NCBI GenBank assembly: GCA_947258495.1
Contig: CAMYIN010000105.1
Span: forward strand, 1-39,399
Length of the DNA: 39,399 nucleotides
Source of the DNA: an uncultured Gammaproteobacteria bacterium
Lineage (GTDB): Bacteria; Pseudomonadota; Gammaproteobacteria; Arenicellales; JAANXG01
Direction: 5' to 3'
In this document: in pieces, positions 9,330-34,597 of the stretch
Numbering within the stretch: the first letter of the stretch is position 1
Layout of the letters: every line of letters starts with the position of its first letter
The notes under the pieces: generated by a model
What the model saw: the letters and a program-made list of their open reading frames with translations, nothing else
Databases searched by the model: none
Told to the model about the DNA's origin: nothing
Made by a program: the position numbers and the translations under genes

Positions 9330-9767
9330 ATGGTTAGAGCCCAGGACATTGCAGAAGTACTCGGAGGCCCCAAGACGTTGGGTCGCCGCATTCATTCCAT
9401 GATGGACCTCGACGACGCGGTGGCGAACGGTATTCCGCGTCCCGCCTTCGACGCCCTGGTGGCGCGCATCTCCGAGGAGTTGGACGAAGTTACGCGCGTC
9501 GGCCTTCGCTATCGCATCATCCCGCGCGCCACCTATCAGCGCTCGCGGACTCTCAACACCCAGCACAGCGAGACGGCCGAGCGCCTGGCGCGGATCTACG
9601 CCATGGTCCAGGCCGCCTGGGAGGACCCGGGCGCGGCGCGCCGATTTCTCATGACCCCGCATCCGGAACTCAAGGGCAAAACGCCGCTCGATGCGGCGCT
9701 CACCGAGATCGGCGGACGGCAGGTGGAGGAGATCCTTGAGCGCGCGAAAGCCGGCCTCCCCGTTTAA
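9330..9767 (+). CDS. Xre/MbcA/ParS-type antitoxin of Res-Xre module
   Basis: A 145-aa antitoxin. The N-terminus (AQDIAEVLGGPKTLGRRI) is the Xre-like HTH region seen in Res-Xre antitoxins, and the C-terminal half is the DUF2384/MbcA-ParS toxin-binding domain: ETAERLARIYAMVQAAWED, then RRFLMTPHPELKGKTPLDAAL and EIGGRQVEEILERA. In known systems it neutralises the RES toxin and represses its own promoter; the palindrome at 9281-9308 fits that role. The gene overlaps the toxin start by 32 nt, so translation is likely coupled. Confidence 0.9.
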   Translation: MVRAQDIAEVLGGPKTLGRRIHSMMDLDDAVANGIPRPAFDALVARISEELDEVTRVGLRYRIIPRATYQRSRTLNTQHSETAERLARIYAMVQAAWEDPGAARRFLMTPHPELKGKTPLDAALTEIGGRQVEEILERAKAGLPV

Positions 9768-10227
9768 GGGTACGCTGTCGGCATTTCGCATCGCCCACGC
9801 CGACTATCCGATTTTCGATGGCGGTGGAGCGTACAAATACGGCAGCCGCTGGTGTACGCCGGGCCGCTACATCGTCCACACCGCATCCACCTATTCGCTC
9901 GCGGTGCTCGAAAACGTCGTCCACTGGCGCTTATCGGCGCTGCCCCCGAGCCAGCACTTCATCCGCATCACCATACCCGAGGCGGTCTCGCGCATCGCGC
10001 TGCGCGCCGACGAGCTATCCGGCTGGAGCGATTACCCCTACGGCCCCAGCCAGGAGTACGGCGACGATTGGTACGACCGGCGCGCCAGCGCGGTGCTCAT
10101 CGTGCCCTCGGTGGTGTCGCCCTTCGAACCCAACGTGCTGTTGAACCAGCGTCACGAGGAATTCAGGCGCATTAAGGCGACGGATCCGGCGCCGGCCGTC
10201 TTGGACGAACGCCTGTTCGTTCAATAA
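9736..10227 (+). CDS. RES-domain toxin
   Basis: A 163-aa RES-domain protein, the toxin of a Res-Xre pair. Characterised RES toxins degrade or consume NAD+. The sequence holds the family's conserved polar residues: the Arg in FRIAHADYP, then GAYKYGSRWCTPG, HTASTYSLAVLENVVHW with the conserved Glu, and DWYDRRASAVLIVPS near the end. The start is taken as TTG 9736 because AGGTGGAGGAG lies just upstream and the product begins beside the RES fold; an ATG at 9691 would add Arg-rich, unlikely residues. A degraded second copy lies at 14888-15175. Confidence 0.88.
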   Translation: MSARKPASPFKGTLSAFRIAHADYPIFDGGGAYKYGSRWCTPGRYIVHTASTYSLAVLENVVHWRLSALPPSQHFIRITIPEAVSRIALRADELSGWSDYPYGPSQEYGDDWYDRRASAVLIVPSVVSPFEPNVLLNQRHEEFRRIKATDPAPAVLDERLFVQ

Positions 10228-11331: not shown

Positions 11332-11394
11332 GCTTACGGATATCATTCATCGAATGGGAAAATAGTTCTCCTTTTTGTCTTTTTCGCCGCCACA

Positions 11395-13302
11395 ATGACT
11401 GATTCTCCCACCTGGAGATTTCGTCGGATGCAGCCCGGGGAGATGAACATCGACCCGATCGAGGCCGAGTTTTTCTCCACCGAGGCGCTCGGCAGCTTGG
11501 CGGACGCGCTGGTGCGGGAGGCCATTCAGAACTCCCTCGACGCCAGACTCCCCGGCGAACAACTCACGATCCGCATCTCTTTTCCGCAGGCGGGCGAGGT
11601 CTTGAACGGTGAGTCCAAGGTTCCGTATCTGGCGGGTCTGTGGGGGCATCTCAACGCCAACCGGAGCGGCCTCACGGATTTGCCTTCGTCGTCCGAGTTG
11701 CTGAACTACGTCGTCATCGAAGACTTCGGCACGCGTGGCCTGCAGGGCGATCCGTCGCAAAGCGAAGACGTCGAACTCGACGCCGCCGCGGCGAGAAACG
11801 ACTTCTATTATTTCTGGCGCAATGTCGGCCGTTCCCGCAAACACGCCGCGGAACTGGGCCGCTGGGGCCTGGGAAAAACGGTGTTTTCGGCGGCCTCGCG
11901 CATCAACGCCTTTTTCGGTTTGTCGATTCGGGCCGACGACCGGCGACGCGTGCTGATGGGCCAGGCGGTGCTGAAGATCCATAAGCTGCGAGACCAGCGT
12001 TTTTATCCCTATGGGTATTTCGGGCGCTTCGACAATGGATTCGCGCTGCCGCTCGAAGACGCGGCGCACGTGCAGCGCTTCCGCCGCGATTTTCTGATCT
12101 CGCGAAGCGACGAACCCGGCCTGTCGGTGATCATACCGTTCCCCGTCGCCGAGCTCACGCCGCAGGCGGTGCTCGCCTCGATCATCCGGCACTACTTTAT
12201 TCCCATTATTTCTGGCGATATCTCGGCGGAAATCGTGCACGACGGCAAAACGGAATTTCTGGATGCACGGACTTTGGACCGATATATCACACGGGACTCC
12301 CGGGAAGACGCGCCCCAGCTGGGACGGTTGTTGGAACTGGCGCGCTGGGGCGTGCAGTTACCGCGCGAGCAGTACGCGCGCCTGAACCCGCCGTCCGCCG
12401 CTCGGGCGCCGCGATGGAACGACGACTGCATCGCCGCCGATGCCCTGGGGCCATTGCGCGGCCGCTTCAACGCCGGTCGGCCCATTGCAGTGAGCGTGCC
12501 GGTTTGGGTGAAGCCGGCCGCGGCGGAGCCCGTGCTGTCGCAGTTCGACGTCTACCTGGAGCGCGACGACGCCCTCGGCAGCGCGGAGGAGCATTTCGTC
12601 CGCGACGGCATCACCATCGCCGGCGTGCGGGCGGCGATGCAGAAAGGCATGCGGGTGCTGGTGCTGGTCCGCGACCAGCCGCTGTCGGAGCTGCTGGGAG
12701 ACTCCGAAAATCCGGCGCACACCGAGTGGCAGGAGCGTTCCCCGAAATTCAAGGATCGCTATCGCCACGGTCCTTTTACTCTTCGCTACGTAAAGAACGT
12801 CCCGCGTGAGATAGTGCGGGCGATGACACGGCCAACGGAGGATCGGGACTTTGATTTGTTGCGCCACGTCTTTGCCCTGGACATTCCTACCGAGCAGTCG
12901 GTCGTGGATCCGAAAAAAGGCCGGGAGGACAAGCCGGGAACCGAGGACACCGGCGAAGCGATGAGCGTCGAGACCGTGGGCGTGGATCGCTTTTTTCAGC
13001 TGCAAAAACTGCACGGCGGTTTCCGCCTCGCAGGCAACGGTGACGGCAGGGCGATGCCGCGCAATGCGGCGGTTTGGGTGGCGTACGACGTGCGGCGGGG
13101 CAATCCCTTCATCCAGTACCAGCGGCCGGACTTCGAGTTGGACAAACCGCCCATCGTCATCGAAAGCGAACATGCGGAGATCACGCGGCGCGGCGGCAAT
13201 CTGCTGGTAATCGACATTCGGGACCCGCATTTCCGCGTGACCGTTGAGGGATTCGATGTGCGCCGCGACATCCGCGTGCGTGTCGAGGCGTCCGCCCTGT
13301 GA
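11395..13302 (+). CDS. GHKL-type ATPase, first gene of three-gene cassette
   Basis: A 635-aa protein with the Bergerat (GHKL) ATP-binding signature. The N box is LVREAIQNSLDAR (E42, N46, D49). G1 is IEDFGTRGL (D110, G112, G115). A glycine loop GRWGLGKT (155-162) matches the lid motif. This pattern is seen in MORC/Hsp90/MutL-like ATPases and in ATPases of restriction-type systems, not in histidine kinases, since no HisKA or periplasmic part exists. The C-terminal ~450 residues match nothing I recognise. Its stop overlaps the next gene as GTGA (13299-13302). A role as the motor or switch of a conflict system is inferred from architecture and operon only. Confidence 0.75.
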   Translation: MTDSPTWRFRRMQPGEMNIDPIEAEFFSTEALGSLADALVREAIQNSLDARLPGEQLTIRISFPQAGEVLNGESKVPYLAGLWGHLNANRSGLTDLPSSSELLNYVVIEDFGTRGLQGDPSQSEDVELDAAAARNDFYYFWRNVGRSRKHAAELGRWGLGKTVFSAASRINAFFGLSIRADDRRRVLMGQAVLKIHKLRDQRFYPYGYFGRFDNGFALPLEDAAHVQRFRRDFLISRSDEPGLSVIIPFPVAELTPQAVLASIIRHYFIPIISGDISAEIVHDGKTEFLDARTLDRYITRDSREDAPQLGRLLELARWGVQLPREQYARLNPPSAARAPRWNDDCIAADALGPLRGRFNAGRPIAVSVPVWVKPAAAEPVLSQFDVYLERDDALGSAEEHFVRDGITIAGVRAAMQKGMRVLVLVRDQPLSELLGDSENPAHTEWQERSPKFKDRYRHGPFTLRYVKNVPREIVRAMTRPTEDRDFDLLRHVFALDIPTEQSVVDPKKGREDKPGTEDTGEAMSVETVGVDRFFQLQKLHGGFRLAGNGDGRAMPRNAAVWVAYDVRRGNPFIQYQRPDFELDKPPIVIESEHAEITRRGGNLLVIDIRDPHFRVTVEGFDVRRDIRVRVEASAL

Positions 13303-14075
13303 TTCGACGCCTCAACTACACGGGCCGCAGGAAGATCCCCCGCTCGGCGGTGACGATTCGGTTGCTGCCTGCGGACGATGCCGGGTATGCGTTTGCCGCC
13401 GACCTCGACCTGGCGCCGTTGGGCTTCCCCAAGGACTCCAGCGTCTTCGTCGAGGCCTACAACTCGGCTTCGTACATGCGGTTCGCCTTCGGAACCATTG
13501 GCAAACCCCGCGACCCGGATGACCTGCGCTTGACGGACGTTACCTCGCGGCCGCTGCCGAAGTTCCGCGTAAAAGTGGTTGATCAATCCAGGCGCCACGG
13601 ATTGTTGCTCGGCGTGGCCGACAAGCTCATACCGCTGCGCCCGCGTGAGGACGTAGACAACAGGCAATCGTTGCTGCCGGTCGATTTCTGCGATCTGGGG
13701 GATCGTGTCTGGCGCTTGGAGCTGAGCGACTGGCCGGTGCTGGAGCTGAACAACCGCGTCGACGCCATCGGCGAGGCCGCACGTACAGGAGATGCGTTTC
13801 TGGCGCTGGTTTATCCCGAGATACTGCGCCACATTCTCCACGAAATCCTGATCGTTCTCGAGGAGACCGATGTCGGCTTTGACGACGGCGAATGGACCAG
13901 TCTGTGGTTGCGTTTCGTGGGCGCGCTTCCGGGCGTGACCGAGCCCCCGAGCGGTGTGGGCGATGCCGGGATGGCGAGGCGGCGTGAATGGATAGAAGAG
14001 GCGGTGCTGGGTTTTTGCCGATCCAGGCGGGCGCGGCAGCGGTTTGCGAAGGCGCTGCGCAAGGAATCGAGCTGA
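13299..14075 (+). CDS. hypothetical protein, second gene of GHKL cassette
   Basis: A 258-aa protein of unknown family. It starts at GTG 13299, overlapping the ATPase stop by 4 nt, and its own stop overlaps the next ATG (TGATG), so the three genes should be translated together. The N-terminal half looks beta-rich (RSAVTIRLLPADDAGY, SVFVEAYNSASYMRFAFG), the C-terminal part helical and Arg-rich (RREWIEEAVLGFCRSRRARQ). No nuclease, methylase or helicase motif was found. It could be an adaptor or target-recognition subunit of the ATPase (inference). Confidence 0.7.
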   Translation: MIRRLNYTGRRKIPRSAVTIRLLPADDAGYAFAADLDLAPLGFPKDSSVFVEAYNSASYMRFAFGTIGKPRDPDDLRLTDVTSRPLPKFRVKVVDQSRRHGLLLGVADKLIPLRPREDVDNRQSLLPVDFCDLGDRVWRLELSDWPVLELNNRVDAIGEAARTGDAFLALVYPEILRHILHEILIVLEETDVGFDDGEWTSLWLRFVGALPGVTEPPSGVGDAGMARRREWIEEAVLGFCRSRRARQRFAKALRKESS

Positions 14076-14797
14076 TGGCGGAACTCGTGCGCGCGCTCGA
14101 TAGTGCGGGGATCGAGCGGTTCCGGAAATATCTGTCCGGCCTGCGGGGAAACAAGCGCGGCGACCCGCCGCGGGGGTTGTTGGAAGACCCTCGCCATACC
14201 TCTGAATTGTCGGTCGACGTGTCGATCGAGCGGCGCGATTTTCCACATAGGCTGGCGCTGGGAGAATACCTGTGCGAGATACTTGCGCCGTTGCCCGCGG
14301 AAGACACGGATCGGAACCAGGGATTGTGGACCTGGCTGTCGCTGTTTCTGTTCGATCAAGTCTGCCCGGCGGATCCCGACGGTGCCCGACGGCCGGGTCA
14401 GGACTATCGCCACATTCCCGAATTCAGTTTCCGGTACCGGCACCGGCATCTGTTGTTCGGGCCCTATCAGGTGTTTCGTCGGCACGGCATCGATTCGACG
14501 CTGTTGCTGTCGGGACCACTGCACCGGGAAAGCACGATCTATCACGAAATAGCTGGACGGCAGGACTTGATCGCGAACCTCGGAGTCGTCAACGCTGCGA
14601 CCAGGCTGTACCTCGACGAAGACAGCCGCTCCCCGAAGCCGGGTTCACAAGCCGCGTCAGTCCGCGGTGGTTCAGTTCGGCGTTTTGTTCGCGTGTTGCA
14701 GCAACTCGACGTGAACTACGACATCTACGGCATGTCGGGCGCCGATATTCTCAGCCTACTTCCGAGCGAATTCGATCAATGGACTAACAACGGCTAG
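14075..14797 (+). CDS. hypothetical protein, possibly DUF6339-like, third gene of GHKL cassette
   Basis: A 240-aa protein beginning MAELVRALD at ATG 14075 inside the TGATG overlap. It is helical, with aromatic-rich blocks (LWTWLSLFLFDQVCP; HRHLLFGPYQVFRRHG). Length, composition and its place after a GHKL ATPase remind me of DUF6339-type proteins seen in restriction-like loci, but this is from memory and weak. No catalytic motif is evident. An ATG at 13988 in the same frame is rejected because it lies inside the previous gene and gives a low-quality N-terminus. Confidence 0.65.
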   Translation: MAELVRALDSAGIERFRKYLSGLRGNKRGDPPRGLLEDPRHTSELSVDVSIERRDFPHRLALGEYLCEILAPLPAEDTDRNQGLWTWLSLFLFDQVCPADPDGARRPGQDYRHIPEFSFRYRHRHLLFGPYQVFRRHGIDSTLLLSGPLHRESTIYHEIAGRQDLIANLGVVNAATRLYLDEDSRSPKPGSQAASVRGGSVRRFVRVLQQLDVNYDIYGMSGADILSLLPSEFDQWTNNG

Positions 14798-14887: not shown

Positions 14888-15175
14888 GGTACCCATATTT
14901 TCCACACCGCCTCCCCCTATTCGCTGGTGGTCCTCGAAAACGTCGTGCGGTGACGCTTGTCGGTGCTGCCCGCCGAGGAGATTCCCGGGTGGAGCGATTA
15001 CCCCTACGATCCCAGCCAAGAGTACGGCGACGATTGGTACGACCGGCGCGCCAGCGCGGTGTTCATCTTCCCCTCGGTAGTGTCACCTTTCGAATCCAAC
15101 GTATTTTTGAACCAGCGTCACGGGGAATTGTGGCGCATCACGGCGACGGATGCGGTGCCGGCCGTATTGATTGGT
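14888..15175 (+). pseudogene. degraded RES-domain toxin, second copy
   Basis: The frame reads like the toxin at 9736-10227: FHTASPYSLVVLENVV, then a TGA where the intact gene has TGG (VVHW), then RLSVLP. An in-frame loss of about 20 codons follows, then a well-conserved end (GWSDYPYDPSQEYGDDWYD, RRASAVFIFPSVVSPFE, FLNQRH). The first third, including the conserved Arg, is gone. The DNA is still very similar to the intact copy, so duplication was fairly recent. No antitoxin remnant was seen before it. Confidence 0.85.
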
Positions 15176-16974: not shown

Positions 16975-18474
16975 ATGCACGGTTTTATTGAGGACGGTGC
17001 TTGGGATAACCTGCTACGCGAGATTCGCAAGAAGCGCTGCACACCGATTGTAGGGCCCCGAGTCGCGGAACACTTACTCGGCTCTCGCGCCGAAATAGCG
17101 GAGCGATGGGCAGATACGTATAAATACCCTCTAGATCCTAAGGATCGAAGCAATCTACGGCAAGTCGCTCAGTACGTTGAAGTCAAAAGAAGACGACGCG
17201 TACTTATAGATGAGCTCGTTGACTATTTATGTCGAGCGTTGCAAGAACGATATGGTGATATTCTCTCGGAGGTACAGCGCGAGGCGGAACCTAGTGAGCA
17301 GCTGCTTAACGCACTTATTAATGAGGTCGTCATTAACAAACAAAAAAGGGATCCTTATGACCCACATCTCATACTGGCAGAGCTTAAGCAGAACATATAT
17401 GTAACGGCGGCCTTTGGTAATCTGCTCGGCAGCGCTTTCGCTCAGAGCAAAATAGATCATGTGGTCGAGGCGTGTAATTGGAAGCGAGAAAGGGAATTTC
17501 AGAGCGTGTTCGACACAGATCCAAATTACAATCCCGATGAAAATCGTCCCCTGGTGTACCATTTGTTTGGGCGCATAAACGAATGCGATTCTTTGGTACT
17601 AACAGAAGATGATTACTTTGATTTTTTGATCTCAGTCTGCACAGAGACCGAACTTATTCCCACCAAGGTCTGGAAAGCTCTAACTGACACGTCTTTGTTC
17701 TTTGTTGGATTTAGAATCACGGATTGGGAATTTCGCGTGTTGCTCCGGCTTATTTCCAGCAGAGAATCAAAAGAAAAACTGAAAGACTTCGAGCATGTTG
17801 CCGTACAAGTTGATCCTAGCGCAGATGACTTTAAAAGTCCTGAGACAGTTCGAGAGTATCTGGGTAATTATTTTGGCGAACAGCTTTATGCGGTCAACAT
17901 TTATTGGGGGGAAATCGGCGATTTCATGCGCGAACTCAAGGCTCATTTAGATCAACCGTCAATTATGCCGGCGAAAGCCGGAGACCGACCAACCGCGCCG
18001 ATCAAGTTAGAGCAGCCTATCGATCTTGTTTACTCGTACGCGCATGGCGATGAAGATTTGATAAACGAATTGGATAAGCACCTGAGCACTCTAAAAGAAA
18101 AGGGCTGGATCCGTACTTGGCATGATCGCAGCATCAGGGGGGGCGAAAAGTGGGAGCAAGAAATCAACGAGAACTTCGATAAGGCCAAGATCATTCTGTT
18201 ACTGGTAAGCGCGGATTTTTTGTCGTCGGACTTTATCAGAATAAAAGAACTACCCCGTGCAATGGAAAGACATGAGAAAAATGAAGCATGCGTGATCCCG
18301 GTCATCTTGCGTGAATGCGATTGGGAGGAACATATCATCGGTCAACTCGAGGCATTGCCCAAGAGCGGTACGGCGATAACCTCCTGGGCAAACCGAGATG
18401 AAGCGTTCAAGCAGGTGGCGGAAGGAATTCGAGAGGTTATCGAGCGAATGGCAAGAGAGGATCACGCCGTGTAA
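16975..18474 (+). CDS. SIR2-like domain / TIR domain fusion, candidate defence effector
   Basis: A 499-aa cytoplasmic protein. Residues about 1-320 resemble SIR2-like (SIR2_2) domains of defence proteins: CTPIVGPRVAEHLLG as the nucleotide loop, LVYHLFGRINECDSLVLT followed by DYFDFL, and SLFFVGFRITDWEFRVLL. Residues about 349-465 form a TIR domain (IDLVYSYAHGDEDLINEL; WIRTWHDRSIRGG; IILLLVSADFLSSDF; CVIPVILRECDW). TIR domains of this kind cleave NAD+ or make cyclic signals; the likely catalytic Glu is E425 in IKELPRAMERHE. The SIR2 catalytic Asn and His positions look substituted (VTAAFGN; HLFG). AAGGA at 16963 sets the start. It precedes the STAND gene by 116 bp. Confidence 0.82.
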   Translation: MHGFIEDGAWDNLLREIRKKRCTPIVGPRVAEHLLGSRAEIAERWADTYKYPLDPKDRSNLRQVAQYVEVKRRRRVLIDELVDYLCRALQERYGDILSEVQREAEPSEQLLNALINEVVINKQKRDPYDPHLILAELKQNIYVTAAFGNLLGSAFAQSKIDHVVEACNWKREREFQSVFDTDPNYNPDENRPLVYHLFGRINECDSLVLTEDDYFDFLISVCTETELIPTKVWKALTDTSLFFVGFRITDWEFRVLLRLISSRESKEKLKDFEHVAVQVDPSADDFKSPETVREYLGNYFGEQLYAVNIYWGEIGDFMRELKAHLDQPSIMPAKAGDRPTAPIKLEQPIDLVYSYAHGDEDLINELDKHLSTLKEKGWIRTWHDRSIRGGEKWEQEINENFDKAKIILLLVSADFLSSDFIRIKELPRAMERHEKNEACVIPVILRECDWEEHIIGQLEALPKSGTAITSWANRDEAFKQVAEGIREVIERMAREDHAV

Positions 18475-18590: not shown

Positions 18591-21218
18591 ATGCCGGATA
18601 GAACAGACACGCCTTACGTTGGGCCTCGAGCGTTTGTGCCGGGCGAGATACTTTACGGGCGAGACCCTGATGCCCGGGCATTGCTCGATCTGTTGATTGC
18701 AAATCGGATAGTGGTGCTTTATTCCCCTTCCGGTGCCGGCAAGACGTCCTTACTTCAGGCAAAGCTTGTTCCGACTCTCGAGGACGAGGAAAATCTCTCG
18801 GTCCTGCCCATTATGCGGGTGACGCATCCGAAGGCATTTCTCGAGGACCCGCGCAAATACAATCGGTATCTGTTCAGCGCATTATTGCATCTCGACTTGG
18901 ATTCGAATGATGGCCTTGGTGTACCTGATGAAGATCTAGCTCAATGGACGATGTCTGCTTATATGAAGCGGCGCGTGCCTGAATCAGAAAATACGGTGAT
19001 GATCTTCGATCAATTTGAAGAGATTCTGACCCGGGATCCTACAGACACGGATGACAAGCGAGAATTTTTTGAGCAAGTCGGCGAAACCTTACGTAACCAC
19101 CATCTTTGGGCAGTGTTCTCACTCCGAGAAGAATACCTGGGCGGATTCAAACCGTATCATGATGCCATACCGACGCGTTTCAGAAACACATTTCGTCTTA
19201 ACTTTCTTGAAAAGGGTGCTGCATTGGAGGCAATCCAGCGACCGGCGCGTGACTTCGGTGTAGATTTCGTCGATGCTGCTGCGCAGGCACTCGTCGATGA
19301 TCTGCGCTTGGTGCAGGTTTCTCGTCCTGACGGAGCACCCGAAACAAAGCTTGGACCCACGGTAGAGCCGGTCCAGATTCAAGTTGTCTGTCGCAATATA
19401 TGGGAGACTCCGCGATCCGATCATAACAAGATCACTATCGACGATTTCAAGGCTGTGAGTGTAGATAAGGCCTTGGCAGCTTACTACGCAAACGCCGTCA
19501 AAAGTGTCGCAGATGCGCACAAAGTAGAAGAGCGGTTTGTTCGGGAATGGGTCGATGAAAATCTCATTTCGGAGCGTGGAATCCGACTGCCGGTATTACA
19601 AGAACCGAACACGAGCAGGGGTCTGGATAACGACGTTATATCGGCATTGATTAACGAGTACGTCGTTCGGGAAGAAACACGTCACGGCGCTACGTGGTAT
19701 GAACTCACCCATGATCGAATGATCGAACCCATCCAAACTAACAATATCGCGTGGAAAGAAAGTAAATTGGCGCCATTTCAACGACAAGCGCAGGCATGGC
19801 AGCGGTCCGACCGTCCCGATCAACTATTATTGCGTGGAGGCGCGCTCAAAAGCGCTAACGCGGTTAAATCGAACTACACGCTTACTAAAACGGAGGAGAA
19901 ATTTCTGATATCGAGCGATGTGCAACAGAAGAAAAGGAGATTGCACAGCGCATTAGTATTTGGTTCCCCAGGAGTTGTGTTATTTGTGTCGGGATTTCTG
20001 TGGTATTCGTCGGAACAGGATAAATTCGAAACGGAGCAAGAAACTAAAGTGAAGTACGAGTTCATCCTACAGCAGGAGGCTTTGCATCAAACCGCCGGAA
20101 TGTTGATGCTTTCAAGCGAAGATGACGTCTCGACGGTGGGTTTCGATTCCACCAGCGGACGGTTGGTAACGGGCGGCAAGACTGGGCAGGTTAGAGTTTG
20201 GGATGTCACTGATCGAGCAAGGCCAAACTTCAGCATGACTAGTGAAGTGCCTGTTGACTATCAATGGACTTTGAGCGGCGACGTATACGAACTTGCATTT
20301 GCTCCGAGGAGCAATCGGGTAATAGCTGTTGTACGCGACAAAGATCGCAATAGTGCTGTCAAACTCTTTTCTGATATCACTAATCGAGACGTGGAACCCA
20401 GAAATCTGGTTTCCCTGGAGGGCGACGTCCTTTCGCTATCATTCAGTCCCGATGGCCGTTGGTTGGCTACCGCGACGAATACGGGTTCTGTCGTTCACCT
20501 CCACGATACTTCTGATCCGACCACCGAGCCTAGTCTTGTGGAAGAGACGGCTGTTGTCGAGACGCTTGCTTTCAGCCCCGATGGACGCTGGTTGGCGACG
20601 GCGACAGGTACCGGTTCTGTTGTACATCTCCGCGACATGTCCGATCTGACTGGGAAGGCGACTGTGGTGCAAGAAAAAGGTATTGTAAGGTCCTTGGCCT
20701 TCAGCCCCGATGGCCGTTGGCTGGCTACGGCGACGGACGCGGAGGATTTTTTCAATCTCCACGACATGTCCGATCCAACCGTGAAACCGGCAGTTGTGCA
20801 CCGGAAAGGCGTTATCACGTCCTTGGCTTTCAGTCCCGATGGTTGTTTTCTGGCCACAGCTATTCAAGATATACCAAGCAACGATAGTTCCATCAGTCTC
20901 TACAAAATGGGTTATCGTTCCGACTCGTCATCCGGGAAATGTGTCTCTTCCGGGACCGTTCCCTCATCAGATCCAATCTTTTCGCAGCGCGTGGCGACTA
21001 CAAGAATAACAACGACAGTCTTCAGTCCCGATGGGCGTTGGTTGGCGGCGATGATACCGGGTGAACATCGCGTCAAATTATGGAAAACGAACGATATGAA
21101 TCTTGAAAGTGGGCCCAATCTTTCGGGTAGTGGAGAGATTGAAGGATTGGCCTTCAGTTTTGACGGTAAAATGCTCGCGATTGCACAAGGGGGTGTACGC
21201 CTTTTCGTGCTGAAGTAG
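18591..21218 (+). CDS. nSTAND-type NTPase with transmembrane segment and WD40 repeats
   Basis: An 875-aa protein. It opens with YVGPRAFVPGEILYGRD, the entry to nSTAND1 domains. Walker A is SPSGAGKTSLL (about residue 44), Walker B VMIFDQFEEIL (about 136), and SLREEYLGGF follows as in STAND NTPases. A winged-helix-like part (WYELTHDRMIEPI) comes next, then one hydrophobic segment near 455-475 (VFGSPGVVLFVSGFLWY). The last ~370 residues are WD40 blades with FSPDGRWLATAT repeated; four begin exactly 129 nt apart (20442, 20571, 20700, 20829). STAND proteins switch by ATP-driven oligomerisation when the repeats sense a trigger. With the upstream SIR2-TIR gene it likely forms a sensor-effector pair (inference). 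Confidence 0.88.
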   Translation: MPDRTDTPYVGPRAFVPGEILYGRDPDARALLDLLIANRIVVLYSPSGAGKTSLLQAKLVPTLEDEENLSVLPIMRVTHPKAFLEDPRKYNRYLFSALLHLDLDSNDGLGVPDEDLAQWTMSAYMKRRVPESENTVMIFDQFEEILTRDPTDTDDKREFFEQVGETLRNHHLWAVFSLREEYLGGFKPYHDAIPTRFRNTFRLNFLEKGAALEAIQRPARDFGVDFVDAAAQALVDDLRLVQVSRPDGAPETKLGPTVEPVQIQVVCRNIWETPRSDHNKITIDDFKAVSVDKALAAYYANAVKSVADAHKVEERFVREWVDENLISERGIRLPVLQEPNTSRGLDNDVISALINEYVVREETRHGATWYELTHDRMIEPIQTNNIAWKESKLAPFQRQAQAWQRSDRPDQLLLRGGALKSANAVKSNYTLTKTEEKFLISSDVQQKKRRLHSALVFGSPGVVLFVSGFLWYSSEQDKFETEQETKVKYEFILQQEALHQTAGMLMLSSEDDVSTVGFDSTSGRLVTGGKTGQVRVWDVTDRARPNFSMTSEVPVDYQWTLSGDVYELAFAPRSNRVIAVVRDKDRNSAVKLFSDITNRDVEPRNLVSLEGDVLSLSFSPDGRWLATATNTGSVVHLHDTSDPTTEPSLVEETAVVETLAFSPDGRWLATATGTGSVVHLRDMSDLTGKATVVQEKGIVRSLAFSPDGRWLATATDAEDFFNLHDMSDPTVKPAVVHRKGVITSLAFSPDGCFLATAIQDIPSNDSSISLYKMGYRSDSSSGKCVSSGTVPSSDPIFSQRVATTRITTTVFSPDGRWLAAMIPGEHRVKLWKTNDMNLESGPNLSGSGEIEGLAFSFDGKMLAIAQGGVRLFVLK
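20442..20957 (+). repeat. 129-bp tandem WD40-coding repeats
   Basis: Four units within the STAND gene begin with TTCAG(T/C)CCCGATGG at 20442, 20571, 20700 and 20829, an exact 129-nt (43-aa) period with high DNA identity in the first ~40 bases. A fifth, out-of-period copy begins at 21021. This points to recent unit amplification. Confidence 0.8.
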
Positions 21219-21724: not shown

Positions 21725-21787
21725 GGGGGACAGATATATTTTCAGGATTGCGACGGGGTAATGGATGAGGTAATGGGACAGATTTTT
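21725..21787. repeat. GGGGACAG-type repeat, two half sites
   Basis: GGGGGACAGATATATTTT near 21725 and GGGACAGATTTTTC near 21775 are two direct, slightly changed half sites of the dispersed repeat. They lead directly into the multi-hairpin element. Confidence 0.5.
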
Positions 21788-21959
21788 CGCGGAACAAAAC
21801 CCCGTGCGTGAGCATGGGGATGGACGCGATGCCCGCACGGTATCGTGCGGGCCACGGATGAGGTCGGATGCGGCTCTGCCGACAGACGGCCGAGTCCAGT
21901 GTATCCCGGCGTAGCCGGGATGATTCCCCGCGCATGAGCGCGGGGAGATTCAATTTTCA
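21788..21959. repeat. multi-hairpin element, copy A
   Basis: A 172-bp element made of four stem-loops: CCCCGTGC-GTGA-GCATGGGG (about 21800-21819), GCCCGCACG-GTAT-CGTGCGGGC (21831-21852), ATCCCGGC-GTA-GCCGGGAT (21903-21921) and CCCCGCGC-ATGA-GCGCGGGG (21926-21945). An inverted copy lies at 34410-34580. Both borders (CGCGGAAC and CAATTTTC) are shared. Confidence 0.85.
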
Positions 21960-21994
21960 AGAAACGAACCTATCCACTTTTCGCCTTATCGCTA

Positions 21995-27574: not shown

Positions 27575-30268
27575 GTGCACCACGTTCGACCATCGGTAAT
27601 ACGCCACACCTTTCTCGTTACCGGCGTCCTGGCGCGGCGCGAGGCGCTGTACGAAGCGGTGCGCAGCAGTGCGCACGGACGGCAGATCCTGGGCCCCGCG
27701 CAGCTCGCCGCGCGCCTGGCGGGCGGGTTCGCACAACCCATAGATCGCGACGCGCTCCTCGACGCCGTCGATCGGTGTCTCACCGACGCCACGCTGGACA
27801 TCGGCGATCTGGCAGCGATTCGCGACCTTCCCGGCAGCGTGCGCGCCGCCGCACAGACACTGTCGCGGGTGTGGAACGCGGGCATCGATCTGGCGGTGCG
27901 CGCGGGGAAAGCGGACTCGCCGAGGCTGGCCGAACTCGCCAGGCTGGAGGCGGCGGTCCTGCAACACCTGCCCGCGGCGCAGTTTCGCCCGCAGGATCTC
28001 GCGCACCGCGCCCTCGATCGGCGGCAGCTGGCCCCGCGTCTGCTCGGAGCCGTCACCCTGGCCGGAATGCCGGACCTCGATCCCGTATGGCGGCCATTGC
28101 TCAGGGCGCTCGGTGAGGTCGTGCCGATGACCTGGCGATTGGGACACTTTCGCCGGCCCGCTTGGGTGGACGGCGACTCGATCGAGTTCGACGATGCGGC
28201 GGCCAACACACCCGAACTGTTGCGGGTGTCCTGCGCCAACCCGCGGCACGAGGCCCTCGAGGCGCTGCGCTGGGCGCGTGCGCTCATCGCGAGCGGCGCC
28301 GCGCGTCCCGAGGAGATCGCGATCGCGGCGCCGGCCAACGCCGAATGGGACGAACATATCGCGGCCATGGCCGACGACGCAAACCTGCCGCTCGCGTTCG
28401 TCCACGGGCGCCCGGCACTGAACACCCCGGACGGTCAGACCTGCGCTGCGTTGGCGGAGGTGTTGCTGAACGGCCTGAGTCGCTCGCGCGTGGAACGTGT
28501 TTTAACGTCGATCCGCGGCGCCACCGACGCGACGCGGGGCATTCCCGGTAACTGGCAGCGCATCCTCCCGCGCGACGCACCCTTGTTGCACGCGCAGCAG
28601 TGGCGCGGGGTGATCGAGGGCACGACCGAATGGCCCGAAGGACGGAATTTCGGCGCCACCCTGGAAGCGCTCATCGACCTGCTCGATCGCGGCGCCGAGG
28701 CCGCGTCCGAGGCCGGGGAACGCCTGCTGGCCGGGCGCGCGCGCGCCGTCTGGCGCAAGGCGTTGAAAGAAGGACCGGCGCGGGCCCTTGCGGTGTCCTT
28801 GGCCGGCGTTCGGGTCGAAGAACAAGCGGATCCCGTGACCTCGATCGTGTGGTGCGCGGCCGCCGAGGTCGCGTCCTGTCCCAGACCCTACGTCCGTCTG
28901 CTTGGTCTCACCAGCCGGGGTTGGCCGCGCACGCAAAGCGAGGACCCGCTGCTGCCGGCGCACATCGTCGATCCTGGGGAACTCGATCCGGTTCCGGTGC
29001 CGGAGCGCGATCGGCGCGACTTCCGCACTGCCGCGGCGGCGTCCTCGCGGCAGGTCGTGCTGTCCCGTTTCCGACGCGACGCCGAAGGCAGGCAAGCGGG
29101 GGAGAGTGCGCTGCTGCGCGAGCTGCGCGTGGAGCGCGGCGAGGGCTACCTGCGCCGCGAGCGCATACCGGAACACGCGGCGAGCGAAGCCGACCGCCTG
29201 CTCGCCAGGCCCGACGAATTTGCCGCCGACCCCGTCGCCACCCACGCGGTACGCTGCTGGAAGAACTGGCACACGCCCAAACTCACGCCCCACGACGGCC
29301 GCATCCGGGCGCAGCATCCGATACTGGTTCGCATACTGCAGGAACGGTTCTCGGCGACGCGCTTGCGTCGTCTGGTGCGTGACCCGCTGGGCTTCGTCTG
29401 GCGCTACGGCTTGCATTGGCAGGCGCCGGCGGAAGACGAAGAGCCCCTGGGGCTCGATAGTGCGGCGTTCGGCAGCCTTACCCATCGGGTCCTGGAACTG
29501 GCCGTGAACGCCTTGGAGGCCGCGGGAGGTCTGGCCGACGCCGACGCCGCGCAGATCGCGGCCGCTACCGTGGCCGCCGTCGACCGGGCCGCCGACGAGT
29601 ACGAACGGACGCAACCGGTACCGCCGCGCCTGCTGTGGCGGCGCACGCTCACCGAGGTCCGGGATCTGGCACGGACCGCGCTCGCCTGGGACGATGCGCC
29701 CCTGCCGGGGCAGCGGAGTTTTGCCGAGATCGAATTCGGATACGTCGAGGCGACGGCGAGAAGCGGCTGGCCGTGGGACCCCGGGGCCGCGGTGGAGATT
29801 CCGGGAACGGGACTATTGATCAGCGGCACCATCGATCGCCTGGATCTGTCGGCGGACGGCGCCGTCGCGCGCGTGACCGACTACAAGACCGGCAAGGTGC
29901 CCGGAAACAACGTGCAGGTGAACGGGGGCGAGGAATTACAGCGCTGCCTGTATGCCTTTGCCGTGCAGGCGTTGCTCGGAACGGGCGTCGCGGTGGCGGC
30001 GCGGCTGCTGTATGCGCGCGACGGCGGCCGATTGCTCGACCTTGCCGATCCACAGAAGGTCCTCGATGACGTCGCGCATTACTTCGTCGCCGCGCGCGAT
30101 CACCTGCGCGTGGGGCGCGCGCTGGTGGGGCCGGACAGCGGTCGGCGCGACGACGATCCGCTCACTTTTGCGCTACCGGGCAACGCCAAGGAAAACTATT
30201 TGGTAACCAAGGCGGCTGAGGCCCAGTCCGCGATGGCTCCGCTGCCGGAACTGTGGGAGATGCCGTGA
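27575..30268 (+). CDS. AddB-like PD-(D/E)XK nuclease / inactive-helicase subunit
   Basis: An 897-aa partner of an AddA-like helicase in double-strand-break processing. The N-terminal part is helicase-like but lacks a Walker A lysine motif (FLVTGVLARREALYEAV), as in several AddB-type proteins outside Firmicutes. The C-terminal nuclease is clear: LVRDPLGFVWRYGL, FGSLTHRVLELAV, FAEIEFGYV, GTIDRLDLSADG, then VTDYKTGKVPGNN with the catalytic D and K, and EELQRCLYAFAVQ with the QxxxY-like motif. It starts at GTG 27575, immediately after the degenerate repeat array, and overlaps the helicase gene by GTGA. Confidence 0.87.
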   Translation: MHHVRPSVIRHTFLVTGVLARREALYEAVRSSAHGRQILGPAQLAARLAGGFAQPIDRDALLDAVDRCLTDATLDIGDLAAIRDLPGSVRAAAQTLSRVWNAGIDLAVRAGKADSPRLAELARLEAAVLQHLPAAQFRPQDLAHRALDRRQLAPRLLGAVTLAGMPDLDPVWRPLLRALGEVVPMTWRLGHFRRPAWVDGDSIEFDDAAANTPELLRVSCANPRHEALEALRWARALIASGAARPEEIAIAAPANAEWDEHIAAMADDANLPLAFVHGRPALNTPDGQTCAALAEVLLNGLSRSRVERVLTSIRGATDATRGIPGNWQRILPRDAPLLHAQQWRGVIEGTTEWPEGRNFGATLEALIDLLDRGAEAASEAGERLLAGRARAVWRKALKEGPARALAVSLAGVRVEEQADPVTSIVWCAAAEVASCPRPYVRLLGLTSRGWPRTQSEDPLLPAHIVDPGELDPVPVPERDRRDFRTAAAASSRQVVLSRFRRDAEGRQAGESALLRELRVERGEGYLRRERIPEHAASEADRLLARPDEFAADPVATHAVRCWKNWHTPKLTPHDGRIRAQHPILVRILQERFSATRLRRLVRDPLGFVWRYGLHWQAPAEDEEPLGLDSAAFGSLTHRVLELAVNALEAAGGLADADAAQIAAATVAAVDRAADEYERTQPVPPRLLWRRTLTEVRDLARTALAWDDAPLPGQRSFAEIEFGYVEATARSGWPWDPGAAVEIPGTGLLISGTIDRLDLSADGAVARVTDYKTGKVPGNNVQVNGGEELQRCLYAFAVQALLGTGVAVAARLLYARDGGRLLDLADPQKVLDDVAHYFVAARDHLRVGRALVGPDSGRRDDDPLTFALPGNAKENYLVTKAAEAQSAMAPLPELWEMP

Positions 30269-33200
30269 CGGAACTTCCCGACGCCGCGGCGCGCCGGCGC
30301 GCTTTATGCGATCACGACGCCACCCTGCTGGTGGAAGCGGGCGCCGGTTCGGGAAAGACGGCCGTCATGGCCGGTCGCGCGGTATTACTGCTGGCGAAGG
30401 GTGAGCATCCCGGTCACATCGCCGCAATTACCTTCACCGAGCTCGCCGCGGGACAGCTTTTCACCACCATCTGCGAATACCTCGACACGCTGCTTGCGGG
30501 GGAGCTCCCGGTCGGGCTGGATCTGGCGCTGGCGGACGGTTTGAACGACGGCGAACGCCGCAATCTGGCCGCGGCGCGGCAATCCATCGCCGAGCTCACC
30601 GCCACCACCATCCACGGCTTCTGTCAGCAGTTGATCCGGCCCTACCCGGTCGAAGCCGGGCTCGACCCGGGGGCGAAGATCATGGACGAGTCCGAGGCCG
30701 TGCTCGCCTGGCAGGACATCGTCAACGATTTTCTGCGACGGCGCCTCGAGGTCGAGACCGACGACACCGCGCTGGCCGCCTACGTGGTCGCGGCCGGCCC
30801 CGCCGCGCCGCAGCGCATCGAAACGCTGGCGACGTTTCTGCGCCGCTACCGAAGCGCGCGCGCGGCGCCGGTGGACTACGAGGCAAAGGCCCTGCATGCG
30901 CTGGAGACCGCGGTCGATCGGTTCGTGTCCTGGGTGGACGACCGCGAGTACGAAGAGGAGACCACCTCCGCGCTCGCCGGGTCGTTGCGCAAGCTCGCCG
31001 GGCGATACAGCGAGAATTTGGTCAACGGTTGCCGCGATCCCCGCGTGTTGATGGCTTTGGCCCTCGACCCGCCGCAGTGCGTCGCCCACACCAAAGGCAT
31101 GACCTGGCGTTCGTGGAATCGAAAAGGCAAGTGGCAGGACGCCGCCGCCGCCGCGGGCCGGTCGAGGGCCGAAGGGGCCCGGCTGTCGGACGAGGGCACG
31201 GCGCTGTACCAAGACGTGGGTGCGGCGTGGATTCGCCTCCAGGGAATGCTCGACGCCGCGGCTTTCCGGTTGTTGGCCGACGACGTGCAGGAACTGTTGG
31301 AAGACTACGCGCGCTACAAGCGCGATGCGGCGCTGATCGATTTCGACGACTTGTTGCACCACGCCCGCCGCCTGCTGCGTGATCACGATGCGGTGCGCGA
31401 CGCCCTCGCGGAGCGCTACCGGCGCGTGCTGGTGGACGAGTTTCAGGATACCGATCCGTTGCAGGTGGAGATACTCTGGCGTCTGTGCGGCGAGGGTGCG
31501 CGCGACGCCGACTGGCGGCAACGCGCGCTGCGGCCGGGGGCGTTGTTCTGCGTGGGGGACCCGAAGCAGGCCATTTATCGCTTCCGCGGCGCGGACGTAG
31601 ACACCTATGTGGCCGCGCGCGAGGCCATCGCGGGTCAGTTCCCGGACAACGTCCTGGAGATCACCGCGAACTTCCGCTCGCTGGCGCCGATACTGGAATG
31701 GGTCAACGACCGCTTCGCGCAGCCCTTGAACGCGGCGGGACAGCCGGGATTTCAGAGTCTGTCGCCGACGAAATACGCGGTCGACGACGCGCCCGGTGTG
31801 GCGCGCGTGGAGGTCGATGTGGACGCCGACGGTAGTTCGCACGACGACGTCCGCGAAGCGGAGGCCGCGGCGGTGGCGGCGCTGTGCCGTCGGTTGATCG
31901 GGAGCCATCGCCTGCAGGCTCGATGCGGCGAAGACGCTAGCGTGCGCGCCGGCGACATCGCCCTGCTGGCGCCCACGGGCACGCAGCTGTGGCGTTACGA
32001 ACGCGCCCTCGAGCACCTCGACATCCCGGTGGCGACGCAGGCGGGGAAGGGCTTTTTTCGGCGCCAGGAGATTCAGGACCTGATTGCCGTCACCCGCGCC
32101 CTGGCGGATGCCCGCGACACGGTCGCGCTGGGGGCGTTGCTGCGCGGGCCGCTGGTGGGACTCACCGAAGAGGAACTCCTCGATATCGTCGCCGCGCTGC
32201 CGCGGCCGCACGGCACCGAGCGCATGCCGCGGTTGAGCATGCGCACCGATCCGGGCGACGTCGACCACGCGCCCGCGGCCCACACCCTCGCGGTATTGCG
32301 GGGCCTGGCGGCACAGGCGCACAAGACCGCGCCGTTTCCGCTGCTGGCCGCGGCGGTGGAAGAACTGCGTGTGCGTCCCATCTTGACCCGGCGCCATCCG
32401 GGCAGCGCCGAACGGGCGTTGGCAAACGTAGATCTGTTTCTGGAAATGGCCCGTCCCTACGCAGCGCGAGGTTTACGCGCCTTCGCCGTGGCCATGCGCA
32501 AGAAATGGGAGGATGCCGAGTCGCAGGTCGAAGGGCGCCCCGACGCCGAAGAACAGGCGGTCCACCTCATCACCATGCACTCGGCCAAGGGCCTGCAATG
32601 GCCCATCGTCATTCCGGTGAATACGGTCACGGCGCAGAAAGCAGTGTCGGGATTCGTGCACCGGCGCTCCAGCGACGAGATCTTTTATAAACTCGGTCCG
32701 GTGCCGCATGCGAGCTATACCCATATGCTGGAGGAAGAAAAGGCGCATCGACTGCGGGAACAGGTGCGCCTGCTCTACGTCGCCTGCACCCGCGCCGAGG
32801 AGTTGTTGCTCCTGCCGCGGTTGCCGACGGGTAAGTCCGCGTGGCTGGAAGCGGTCGAGCTGGAACTCGACGCGCTGCCGGTGTTCGATGGCAGCAGGTT
32901 GGAGGAAACGCTCCCGAAGCGTGCGCCGGACGGTGTCAACACCCAGGAGGTGCACGCGTTTGCGCGCGAAGCGGAAGCTATGCGTGCGGCGAAGTCGGTG
33001 ATCGAATGGCGACGACCCAGTCGCCACGAGCTTGCGGACCCCGAGGTCGAGGCGCGAGAGTCGGCGACACAGGTGTTCGCGGCGGCGGACGAAGTGCGGC
33101 CGGCGGTAGAGGGGGGGACAATGCGCGGCAACCTGCTTCACAAACTCGTGGAGGAAGTGCTGAGCGGAGAATCGGAAGCGGACGCCGCCGCCCTCGAGGC

Positions 33201-33603
33201 GCGTGCGCTGGAGTTGCTTTATCAAGTCGGAGCAACGCCCGCGGCCGATCCGGCGACCGGCGCCGCGCCCGAGGAACTGGCGCGGACCGTGATGCGAACA
33301 CTGGAACTGCCGCAGGTGCGCGCCTTGCGCGATCGTTTGCAACCCGAGCTTCCGCTCTACGCCTGTACCGCGGGAGAGGCAGGTGTCGAGGTCGCCACCT
33401 CCGGCATTGCCGACGCCGTCGCCCTCGATCCGTGCGGCAGCATCGAGGTGATCGTCGATTGGAAAAGCGACGTGGCCCCGTCCGCAGCGCAGCGCCAACG
33501 TTACCGCGCGCAGGTCCGCGACTACCTAAGCGCGACCGGCGCCGCCAAGGGAATCATCGTCTACATGACGCTCGGCCAGGTCGACGAAATCGAAGACGAT
33601 TAA
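30265..33603 (+). CDS. AddA-like UvrD/Rep helicase-nuclease
   Basis: A 1112-aa SF1A helicase with a RecB-type nuclease domain. Motif I is EAGAGSGKTAVMAGR, motif II VLVDEFQDTDPLQ, motif III FCVGDPKQAIYRFRGAD, motif IV EITANFRSL, motif V LITMHSAKGLQWPIVI, motif VI RLLYVACTRAEELLLLP. The C-terminal end has RGNLLHKLVEEVL, SGIADAVALD and IVDWKSDVAP, the nuclease D and DxK, followed by YRAQVRDYLSA. With the AddB-like protein it should unwind and trim DNA ends for RecA, and also degrade foreign linear DNA. GTG 30265 overlaps the previous stop (GTGA), with GGAG at 30256. Confidence 0.92.
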   Translation: MTELPDAAARRRALCDHDATLLVEAGAGSGKTAVMAGRAVLLLAKGEHPGHIAAITFTELAAGQLFTTICEYLDTLLAGELPVGLDLALADGLNDGERRNLAAARQSIAELTATTIHGFCQQLIRPYPVEAGLDPGAKIMDESEAVLAWQDIVNDFLRRRLEVETDDTALAAYVVAAGPAAPQRIETLATFLRRYRSARAAPVDYEAKALHALETAVDRFVSWVDDREYEEETTSALAGSLRKLAGRYSENLVNGCRDPRVLMALALDPPQCVAHTKGMTWRSWNRKGKWQDAAAAAGRSRAEGARLSDEGTALYQDVGAAWIRLQGMLDAAAFRLLADDVQELLEDYARYKRDAALIDFDDLLHHARRLLRDHDAVRDALAERYRRVLVDEFQDTDPLQVEILWRLCGEGARDADWRQRALRPGALFCVGDPKQAIYRFRGADVDTYVAAREAIAGQFPDNVLEITANFRSLAPILEWVNDRFAQPLNAAGQPGFQSLSPTKYAVDDAPGVARVEVDVDADGSSHDDVREAEAAAVAALCRRLIGSHRLQARCGEDASVRAGDIALLAPTGTQLWRYERALEHLDIPVATQAGKGFFRRQEIQDLIAVTRALADARDTVALGALLRGPLVGLTEEELLDIVAALPRPHGTERMPRLSMRTDPGDVDHAPAAHTLAVLRGLAAQAHKTAPFPLLAAAVEELRVRPILTRRHPGSAERALANVDLFLEMARPYAARGLRAFAVAMRKKWEDAESQVEGRPDAEEQAVHLITMHSAKGLQWPIVIPVNTVTAQKAVSGFVHRRSSDEIFYKLGPVPHASYTHMLEEEKAHRLREQVRLLYVACTRAEELLLLPRLPTGKSAWLEAVELELDALPVFDGSRLEETLPKRAPDGVNTQEVHAFAREAEAMRAAKSVIEWRRPSRHELADPEVEARESATQVFAAADEVRPAVEGGTMRGNLLHKLVEEVLSGESEADAAALEARALELLYQVGATPAADPATGAAPEELARTVMRTLELPQVRALRDRLQPELPLYACTAGEAGVEVATSGIADAVALDPCGSIEVIVDWKSDVAPSAAQRQRYRAQVRDYLSATGAAKGIIVYMTLGQVDEIEDD

Positions 33604-34382: not shown

Positions 34383-34409
34383 CCACACAACGGGTCTATT
34401 TTTAGACTC

Positions 34410-34580
34410 GAAAATTGAATCTCTCCGCGCTTACGCGCGCGGAATCATCCCGGCGTTGCCGGGATACACTGGGCTCGGCCGGCCGTCGGGAAAGCCGCGT
34501 CCGGCCTCGTCCGTGGCCCGCACGATACCGTGCGGGCATCGCGTCCATCCCCGTGCTCACGCACGGGGTTTAGTTCCGCG
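34410..34580. repeat. multi-hairpin element, copy B (inverted)
   Basis: A reverse-orientation copy of the element at 21788-21959. Hairpins: ATCCCGGC-GTT-GCCGGGAT (34447-34465), GCCCGCACG-ATAC-CGTGCGGGC (34516-34537), CCCCGTGC-TCAC-GCACGGGG (34549-34568), and a less regular first stem (about 34424-34442). It is bounded by GAAAATTGAAT and GTTCCGCG and flanked by GGGTCTATTTTT and ATAAATCCGTCC, repeat-family traces. It ends just past the histidine kinase stop. Confidence 0.85.
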
Positions 34581-34597
34581 ATAAATCCGTCCGCTTT

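Follow-up and report, generated by a model that had tools for sequence, protein, structure and literature searches.

A trio of overlapping genes, here called A, B and C, lies at positions 11395-14797 on the forward strand of a 39,399-nucleotide stretch of DNA from an uncultured gammaproteobacterium. The whole stretch is referred to as the window, and coordinates given without a locus name are positions within it. All three are intact open reading frames.

11395-13302, + strand: gene A, ATG start, 635 amino acids; predicted GHKL ATPase with a paraMORC2-type ExxxH motif
13299-14075, + strand: gene B, GTG start, 258 amino acids; predicted beta-sandwich with a helical C-terminus
14075-14797, + strand: gene C, ATG start, 240 amino acids; occupies a DUF6339-like slot

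The start of B overlaps the stop of A in the sequence GTGA (13299-13302), and the start of C overlaps the stop of B in TGATG (14073-14077). Both overlaps had been proposed in an earlier reading of the letters alone (the sequence-only reading), and we confirmed the two junctions.

We gathered relatives of the trio from bacterial genomes, plasmids and viral contigs by similarity alone (numbered here as loci L002, L003 and so on). The order A-B-C is identical in 29 loci across several phyla, including plasmids and viral contigs. In these 29 loci the genes overlap or are separated by at most 21 bp, with a few long overlaps that possibly reflect misplaced starts. A Mantel test on the pairwise distances gave correlations of 0.93-0.96 among A, B and C, and none of 2000 permutations reached such a value. 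Among four congeneric copies, the ratio of non-synonymous to synonymous substitution (dN/dS) is 0.07-0.21 for all three genes at a dS of 0.46-1.06, indicating that all three have been kept working. Judged from their sequences, the three genes have remained linked, have diverged in parallel and are one functional unit, the products of which would be expected to form a complex. The tree of A has two clades, the well-supported clade of the window and one that holds the proteins of the PADLOC candidate PDC-M33 together with DUF6339. At L036, L038 and L039, which are the most distant of the loci, proteins of similar size occupy the B and C slots. Among these, C of L036 and B of L038 and L039 are recognisable relatives of the trio proteins, while B of L036 is not.

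Two further observations concern the composition of the trio. At L042 (L042:8971-11006) B and C are intact and A is cut to 112 amino acids, with a Vsr fragment nearby and no C5-cytosine methylase (C5-methylase) found in the genome; this is probably a decaying copy. A conserved gene of 73-80 amino acids and of no assigned family immediately precedes A in 14 loci, of which one is a duplicate record (for example L010:4714-4941, L043:12476-12697, L045:3-221 and L048:5869-6099). It is a possible fourth component or controller, and it is absent from the window.

Gene A carries the residues expected of an ATPase, and most of them are invariant among the 29 relatives.

11518-11541, + strand: GHKL motif I of A, E42-D49 (EAIQNSLD); E42, Q45 and D49 in 29/29 relatives, N46 in 28/29
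11722-11742, + strand: GHKL motif II region of A, D110-L116 (DFGTRGL); D110, G115 and L116 in 29/29
11857-11877, + strand: GHKL glycine box of A, 155-GRWGLGK-161; G155, G158 and G160 in 29/29
12601-12603, + strand: R403 of A, invariant (29/29)
12706-12720, + strand: ExxxH of A, E438-H442, both residues in 29/29; the signature given for paraMORC2 in passages of PMC2292703

Motif I of A is the same motif as KELVENSLDA of Escherichia coli MutL. Searches of A, B and C against Pfam and NCBIfam gave no match at E ≤ 1, and sequence-profile searches against the PDB gave nothing credible, the only matches being to proline-rich or designed proteins. When the 29 A proteins were combined in a profile, it could be aligned co-linearly to HtpG of E. 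coli at each of the three ATP-binding motifs (E = 4e-4), and it matched MutL at motif I (E = 0.003); among the controls, which were unrelated and shuffled proteins, no E value was better than 0.16. With its motifs in order and co-linear with those of a known member, A is a GHKL-superfamily ATPase by sequence. The sequence-only reading had called A a GHKL ATPase from E42, N46, D49 and two glycine motifs; the residues were found at these positions and the assignment is borne out by the profile of the relatives. R403 is a possible catalytic residue of a putative S5 domain. In PADLOC, the one match of A is to PDC-M33A (1.4e-12, best over residues 106-300).

B and C are less conserved in their residues and are described here mainly by predicted structure.

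13323-13649, + strand: FN3/Ig-like beta-sandwich of B, residues 9-117; AlphaFold2 predicted local distance difference test (pLDDT) about 74-92 over most of the stretch
14327-14329, + strand: W85 of C, invariant (29/29)

The AlphaFold2 model of B is confident only for residues of about 10-115 and poor elsewhere, including the helical half. The predicted N-terminal domain resembles GH2 Ig-like and FN3 domains (Z 7-9, VIA-align), a fold that says little about function. The model of C is a confident, mainly helical fold (pLDDT 85, predicted template modelling score 0.84) that has no counterpart in the PDB or among the BFVD viral models by Foldseek and VIA-align; absence of a match is no proof of a new fold. 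Among the positions tested in B and C, the only near-invariant residues are tryptophans, W85 of C and W203 of B (27/29), and C has no conserved polar residue. As the ATPase residues of A are kept and the near-invariant residues of its partners are only tryptophans, catalysis would reside in A, with B and C as putative non-catalytic binding subunits.

C of the window does not match the Pfam model of DUF6339 (PF19866), while C in the same slot of an Arthrobacter trio (L010) does at 3.9e-34; C of an Enterococcus trio scores 16.1 bits, under the cut-off of 23.2. In profile-profile comparison of the two clades, the C profiles match at E = 1e-4 and the B profiles at E = 1e-3, as compared to 0.12 and 0.29 when B and C were swapped as cross-controls. 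This supports homology of B and of C between the clade of the window and that of PDC-M33. The suggestion that the third gene is DUF6339-like thus stands through its relatives, by the match between clades and the PF19866 match of the related trio, and not through C of the window directly.

Relatives of the trio lie next to DNA-modification genes. A C5-methylase is present in 16 of the 29 trio loci, within the stretch fetched for each. The commonest Pfam neighbours within 5 kb are DNA_methylase (7 in the clade of the window and 10 in the other), Vsr (4 and 7) and EcoRII-C (1 and 4). In nine sampled genomes, which were drawn by similarity to A or C regardless of methylases, 7 of 16 C5-methylases are located no more than 5 kb from a trio, where 0.07 would be expected (P = 1e-12; separate genes in fragmented matches were counted by hand). 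Annotations inspected by eye gave the same picture on plasmids: the Arthrobacter trio lies beside dcm, Vsr, a type II endonuclease and Shedu, similar settings occur in Paenarthrobacter, Deinococcus, two Priestia and Planococcus (AlwI-type), and the Enterococcus trio lies beside AIPR. The sequence-only reading had described a restriction-like accessory cassette, and the relatives agree with it, as C5-methylases, Vsr and restriction endonucleases adjoin them far more often than chance would give. We also looked for a trio confined to housekeeping surroundings and for a match to a known metabolic complex, and found neither.

The distant loci extend this association. At L036 (L036:3546-12651) the genes for a C5-methylase, Vsr, Z1 and DUF4420 precede A, B and C, all on one strand. 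This gene order ties the trio, and with it the DUF6339-like genes, to the Z1-type restriction systems described in passages of PMC2292703. At L038 (L038:179-8125) and L039 (L039:5026-13246) an A-B-C operon occurs with PAPS-reductase-like, cysteine desulfurase and GmrSD_N genes, and at L037 (L037:2-2391) a PAPS-like gene adjoins an A-like gene as the only sulfur-type gene seen there. The cysteine desulfurase of L038 and L039 is a general one, matching DndA and SspA as well, and the PAPS-like and DUF262 proteins of the L037-L039 loci have no match in the PDB. By analogy these loci recall phosphorothioate systems and possibly represent a new sulfur-modification restriction system.

The trio is a horizontally mobile unit that moves without its neighbours. 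Of six species sampled from the genus of the window, four have it; none of the 35 other genomes sampled in the family and order does. Over 11391-14787 the window shares about 80% identity with its congeners, and at the trio no other stretch matches (blastn); one further 502-bp match between the window and L004 lies elsewhere in the window. Since the four congeneric species share the trio alone and its surroundings differ, the trio moves as a unit. L003 and L004 have one downstream gene in common, so these two may share an insertion site. The quinone-reductase-like gene directly upstream of the window trio has orthologues (83% and 76% identical) in two congeners, with no trio adjoining, and is besides the trio the only gene common to the surroundings of the window and the congeners examined. 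Further out the distribution is sporadic: among the other genomes covered, 10 of 273 in the class have an A-like gene, and 4 of 397 in the phylum have a C-like gene. In viral contigs, neither C profiles nor close A profiles had a match, a few relatives came up with broader A profiles alone, and no annotated phage genome matched the trio. At L004 we also observed a protein of 954 amino acids (L004:9611-12475) whose last 50 residues match dozens of scattered sites in its host genome (G666) at 80-90% identity, indicating that the end of this gene runs into a dispersed repeat.

The window trio forms a supported clade with L002-L004 and L005, nested among methylase-linked relatives in the tree. We found no C5-methylase (PF00145) in the five genomes of this branch (adenine and N4-cytosine methylases were not searched). 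Genome completeness is 74% for the window, 90% for the L002 host, 97% for the L003 host and 96% for the L004 host. The branch is therefore independent of classical C5-derived 5-methylcytosine (5mC), unless a methylase was missed through incompleteness in all five genomes. The restriction-modification neighbourhood is seen in the relatives and not at the loci of the window or its congeners. Use of L038-type sulfur-modification genes by the branch was considered and rejected, as no homologue occurs in the genus or in the L005 genome (positive controls G183, G046 and G003). The methylase-free branch is the unexpected part of the finding.

From its context the trio very probably functions in defence. 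With less assurance, we favour the reading that it is one horizontally mobile unit and most likely a restriction-type defence module. Action of A as an ATP-gated DNA clamp we regard as an even bet, and the balance is equally level for stand-alone action of the trio in the branch of the window. In such a mechanism A would dimerise upon ATP binding and close on DNA in the manner of MutL, Hsp90 or MORC. B, with its beta-sandwich and helices, and the helical C would recognise DNA or partners and assist in selecting or gripping the DNA. Where a methylase is linked, unmarked DNA might then be passed to a nuclease of the locus (of Vsr, EcoRII-C, DUF4420 or DUF262 type) or be cleaved by an unrecognised activity; alternatively, closure might trap the unmarked DNA and so block replication or expression. 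In the branch of the window, the trio alone might serve as a DNA trap that senses something other than missing 5mC, or it might borrow an unlinked nuclease. A bolder and tentative proposal, which we think rather less probable than these, is that the branch is a self-sufficient, methylase-independent defence whose only parts are a paraMORC-type ATPase, a new-fold subunit and an adaptor with a beta-sandwich, which would make it a minimal prokaryotic MORC-like DNA trap that recognises foreign DNA without a self-mark.

Several points weigh against a restriction-type defence module. We recognised no nuclease among the three proteins. The flanking genes seen at the congener loci L002-L004 belong to ordinary metabolism, glucose-6-phosphate dehydrogenase being one, and within the genus only the window copy has defence-like neighbours. 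We found no phage or plasmid-restriction assay of the trio in the open-access literature (preprints excluded).

The trio could instead be a MutL-like accessory of Vsr repair that helps to mend the T:G mismatches left by deamination of 5mC, which would place it in genome maintenance and not in defence. A is indeed MutL/Hsp90-like, and Vsr and C5-methylase are the commonest identified neighbours. However, the trio is under purifying selection in a branch whose genomes, that of L005 included, have no C5-methylase that we could find, the L037-L039 loci pair it with other modification-like genes, and plasmid copies adjoin AIPR or Shedu. That the trio pairs with DNA-modification genes of more than one kind fits a module acting on modified versus unmodified DNA better than a link to 5mC repair, and we consider the repair role unlikely. 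It is less probable still that the window trio is a functionless leftover that outlived a linked methylase. This would agree with the nesting of the solo branch among methylase-linked relatives and with L042, where A is broken and the genome has no C5-methylase. Yet in the window the frames are open and the ATPase residues intact, the low dN/dS holds over four species at substantial dS, and the methylase-free trait is common to all five genomes of the branch.

We give a similarly low probability to the trio being a selfish module that stabilises mobile DNA by addiction, comparable to some restriction-modification and toxin-antitoxin systems. Copies on plasmids and viral contigs and the RES-Xre pair near the window copy would suit such a role, whereas the size and polarity of the trio are unlike those of toxin-antitoxin systems, its three co-inherited genes include no recognisable toxin, and in many hosts it is chromosomal. 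The metabolic genes beside the trios of L002-L004 might suggest that the trio has nothing to do with foreign DNA and is an ordinary chaperone or housekeeping complex. Against the sporadic presence of the trio, its exchange between sites and its strong tie to DNA-modification genes, this is the most improbable of the explanations considered. A defence module of restriction type remains the reading that we prefer.

The trio of the window lies in surroundings that the sequence-only reading took for an accessory island. An Xre-RES toxin-antitoxin pair (9330-10227, Pfam) lies upstream, and a RES fragment follows the trio.

14901-15169, + strand: RES fragment, a direct repeat of 9875-10203 at 84-87% identity (blastn of the window against itself); context, outside the trio machinery

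The sequence-only reading had placed the trio between a Res-Xre pair and a RES relic, and Pfam and the self-comparison agree on both, with the fragment on the same strand. The two RES repeats bracket the quinone-reductase-like gene and the trio, and the repeat may be a trace of how the trio-bearing segment was joined. Downstream of the RES fragment, a single protein (16975-18474) fuses SIR2 (Thoeris ThsA-like, 3.7e-7) to TIR (Thoeris ThsB-like, 1.6e-53), and the next gene (18591-21218) encodes an nSTAND1-WD40 protein. These two genes are possibly a Thoeris-like or STAND-controlled pair that depletes nicotinamide adenine dinucleotide. Elsewhere in the window, a 186-bp repeat in inverted orientation (21776-21961 and 34407-34592, 89% identical), of which the congener L068 also has a copy (83-85%), looks like a small dispersed element, and an AddB-like PD-(D/E)XK gene overlaps an AddA-like UvrD helicase-nuclease gene (27575-33603).

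In eukaryotes, ATPases of the GHKL/MORC type act in the silencing of genes and viruses. A role in restriction was predicted in 2008 for their bacterial forerunners, as given in passages of PMC2292703. The trio presents such an ATPase with two constant partners, neither assigned to a family, as a mobile unit that is found with two or more kinds of DNA-modification genes and, elsewhere, without a C5-methylase. The ATPase module is thereby separated from methylase and nuclease, and a DNA trap can be tested against a nuclease switch with three small genes. In the methylase-free branch, the discrimination of self from foreign DNA likewise becomes a testable question. A defence role would assign a function to DUF6339, and the branch adds a clade missed by the PADLOC models tested.

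Among known systems, the HEF_HK/Response_reg_2 elements (PMC8011034) also combine a GHKL protein and a partner gene beside C5-methylases and Vsr. They consist of two genes, however, and are histidine-kinase-like with Pfam HATPase matches, none of which is found for the window genes. A type II restriction-modification system has a cognate DNA methyltransferase in the locus or genome, and a search with PF00145 alone found none in the genome of the window or in those of L002-L005. Passages of Iyer, Abhiman and Aravind (2008, PMC2292703) describe paraMORC2, recognised by its ExxxH signature, as one of the GHKL families in restriction-modification loci. The settings with DCM, Vsr, the Z1 helicase, the RE-fold DUF4420 and AIPR given there are those of the trio relatives, and A shares the GHKL motifs and ExxxH. 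In contrast, B and C go unmentioned in those passages, most trio loci have no helicase, and the branch of the window has neither a C5-methylase nor a recognised nuclease.

The PADLOC candidate PDC-M33 (models A, B and C) has three genes in the same order as the trio, and the Arthrobacter trio matches all three models. B and C of the window do not match PDC-M33B and PDC-M33C at E ≤ 1; C of L008 and L045 and B and C of L041 are also without a PADLOC match. With A of the window in a separate, well-supported clade and B and C alike only at the profile-profile level, the sequences place the window trio as a sister clade of PDC-M33 and not as a member. PDC-M33 is itself only a prediction, and we found no paper on it or on DUF6339 in the same literature. 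GHKL-Shedu differs from the trio in that VcSduA (paraMORC3) is a single protein with a C-terminal PD-(D/E)xK nuclease domain (PMC12137116), whereas A has no Pfam match to PD-(D/E)xK or DUF4263 at E ≤ 1 and is accompanied by two further genes. VcSduA shares the GHKL ATPase with A, and mutation of its ATPase glutamate abolishes phage defence, which makes it the nearest tested precedent for the trio (PMC12137116).

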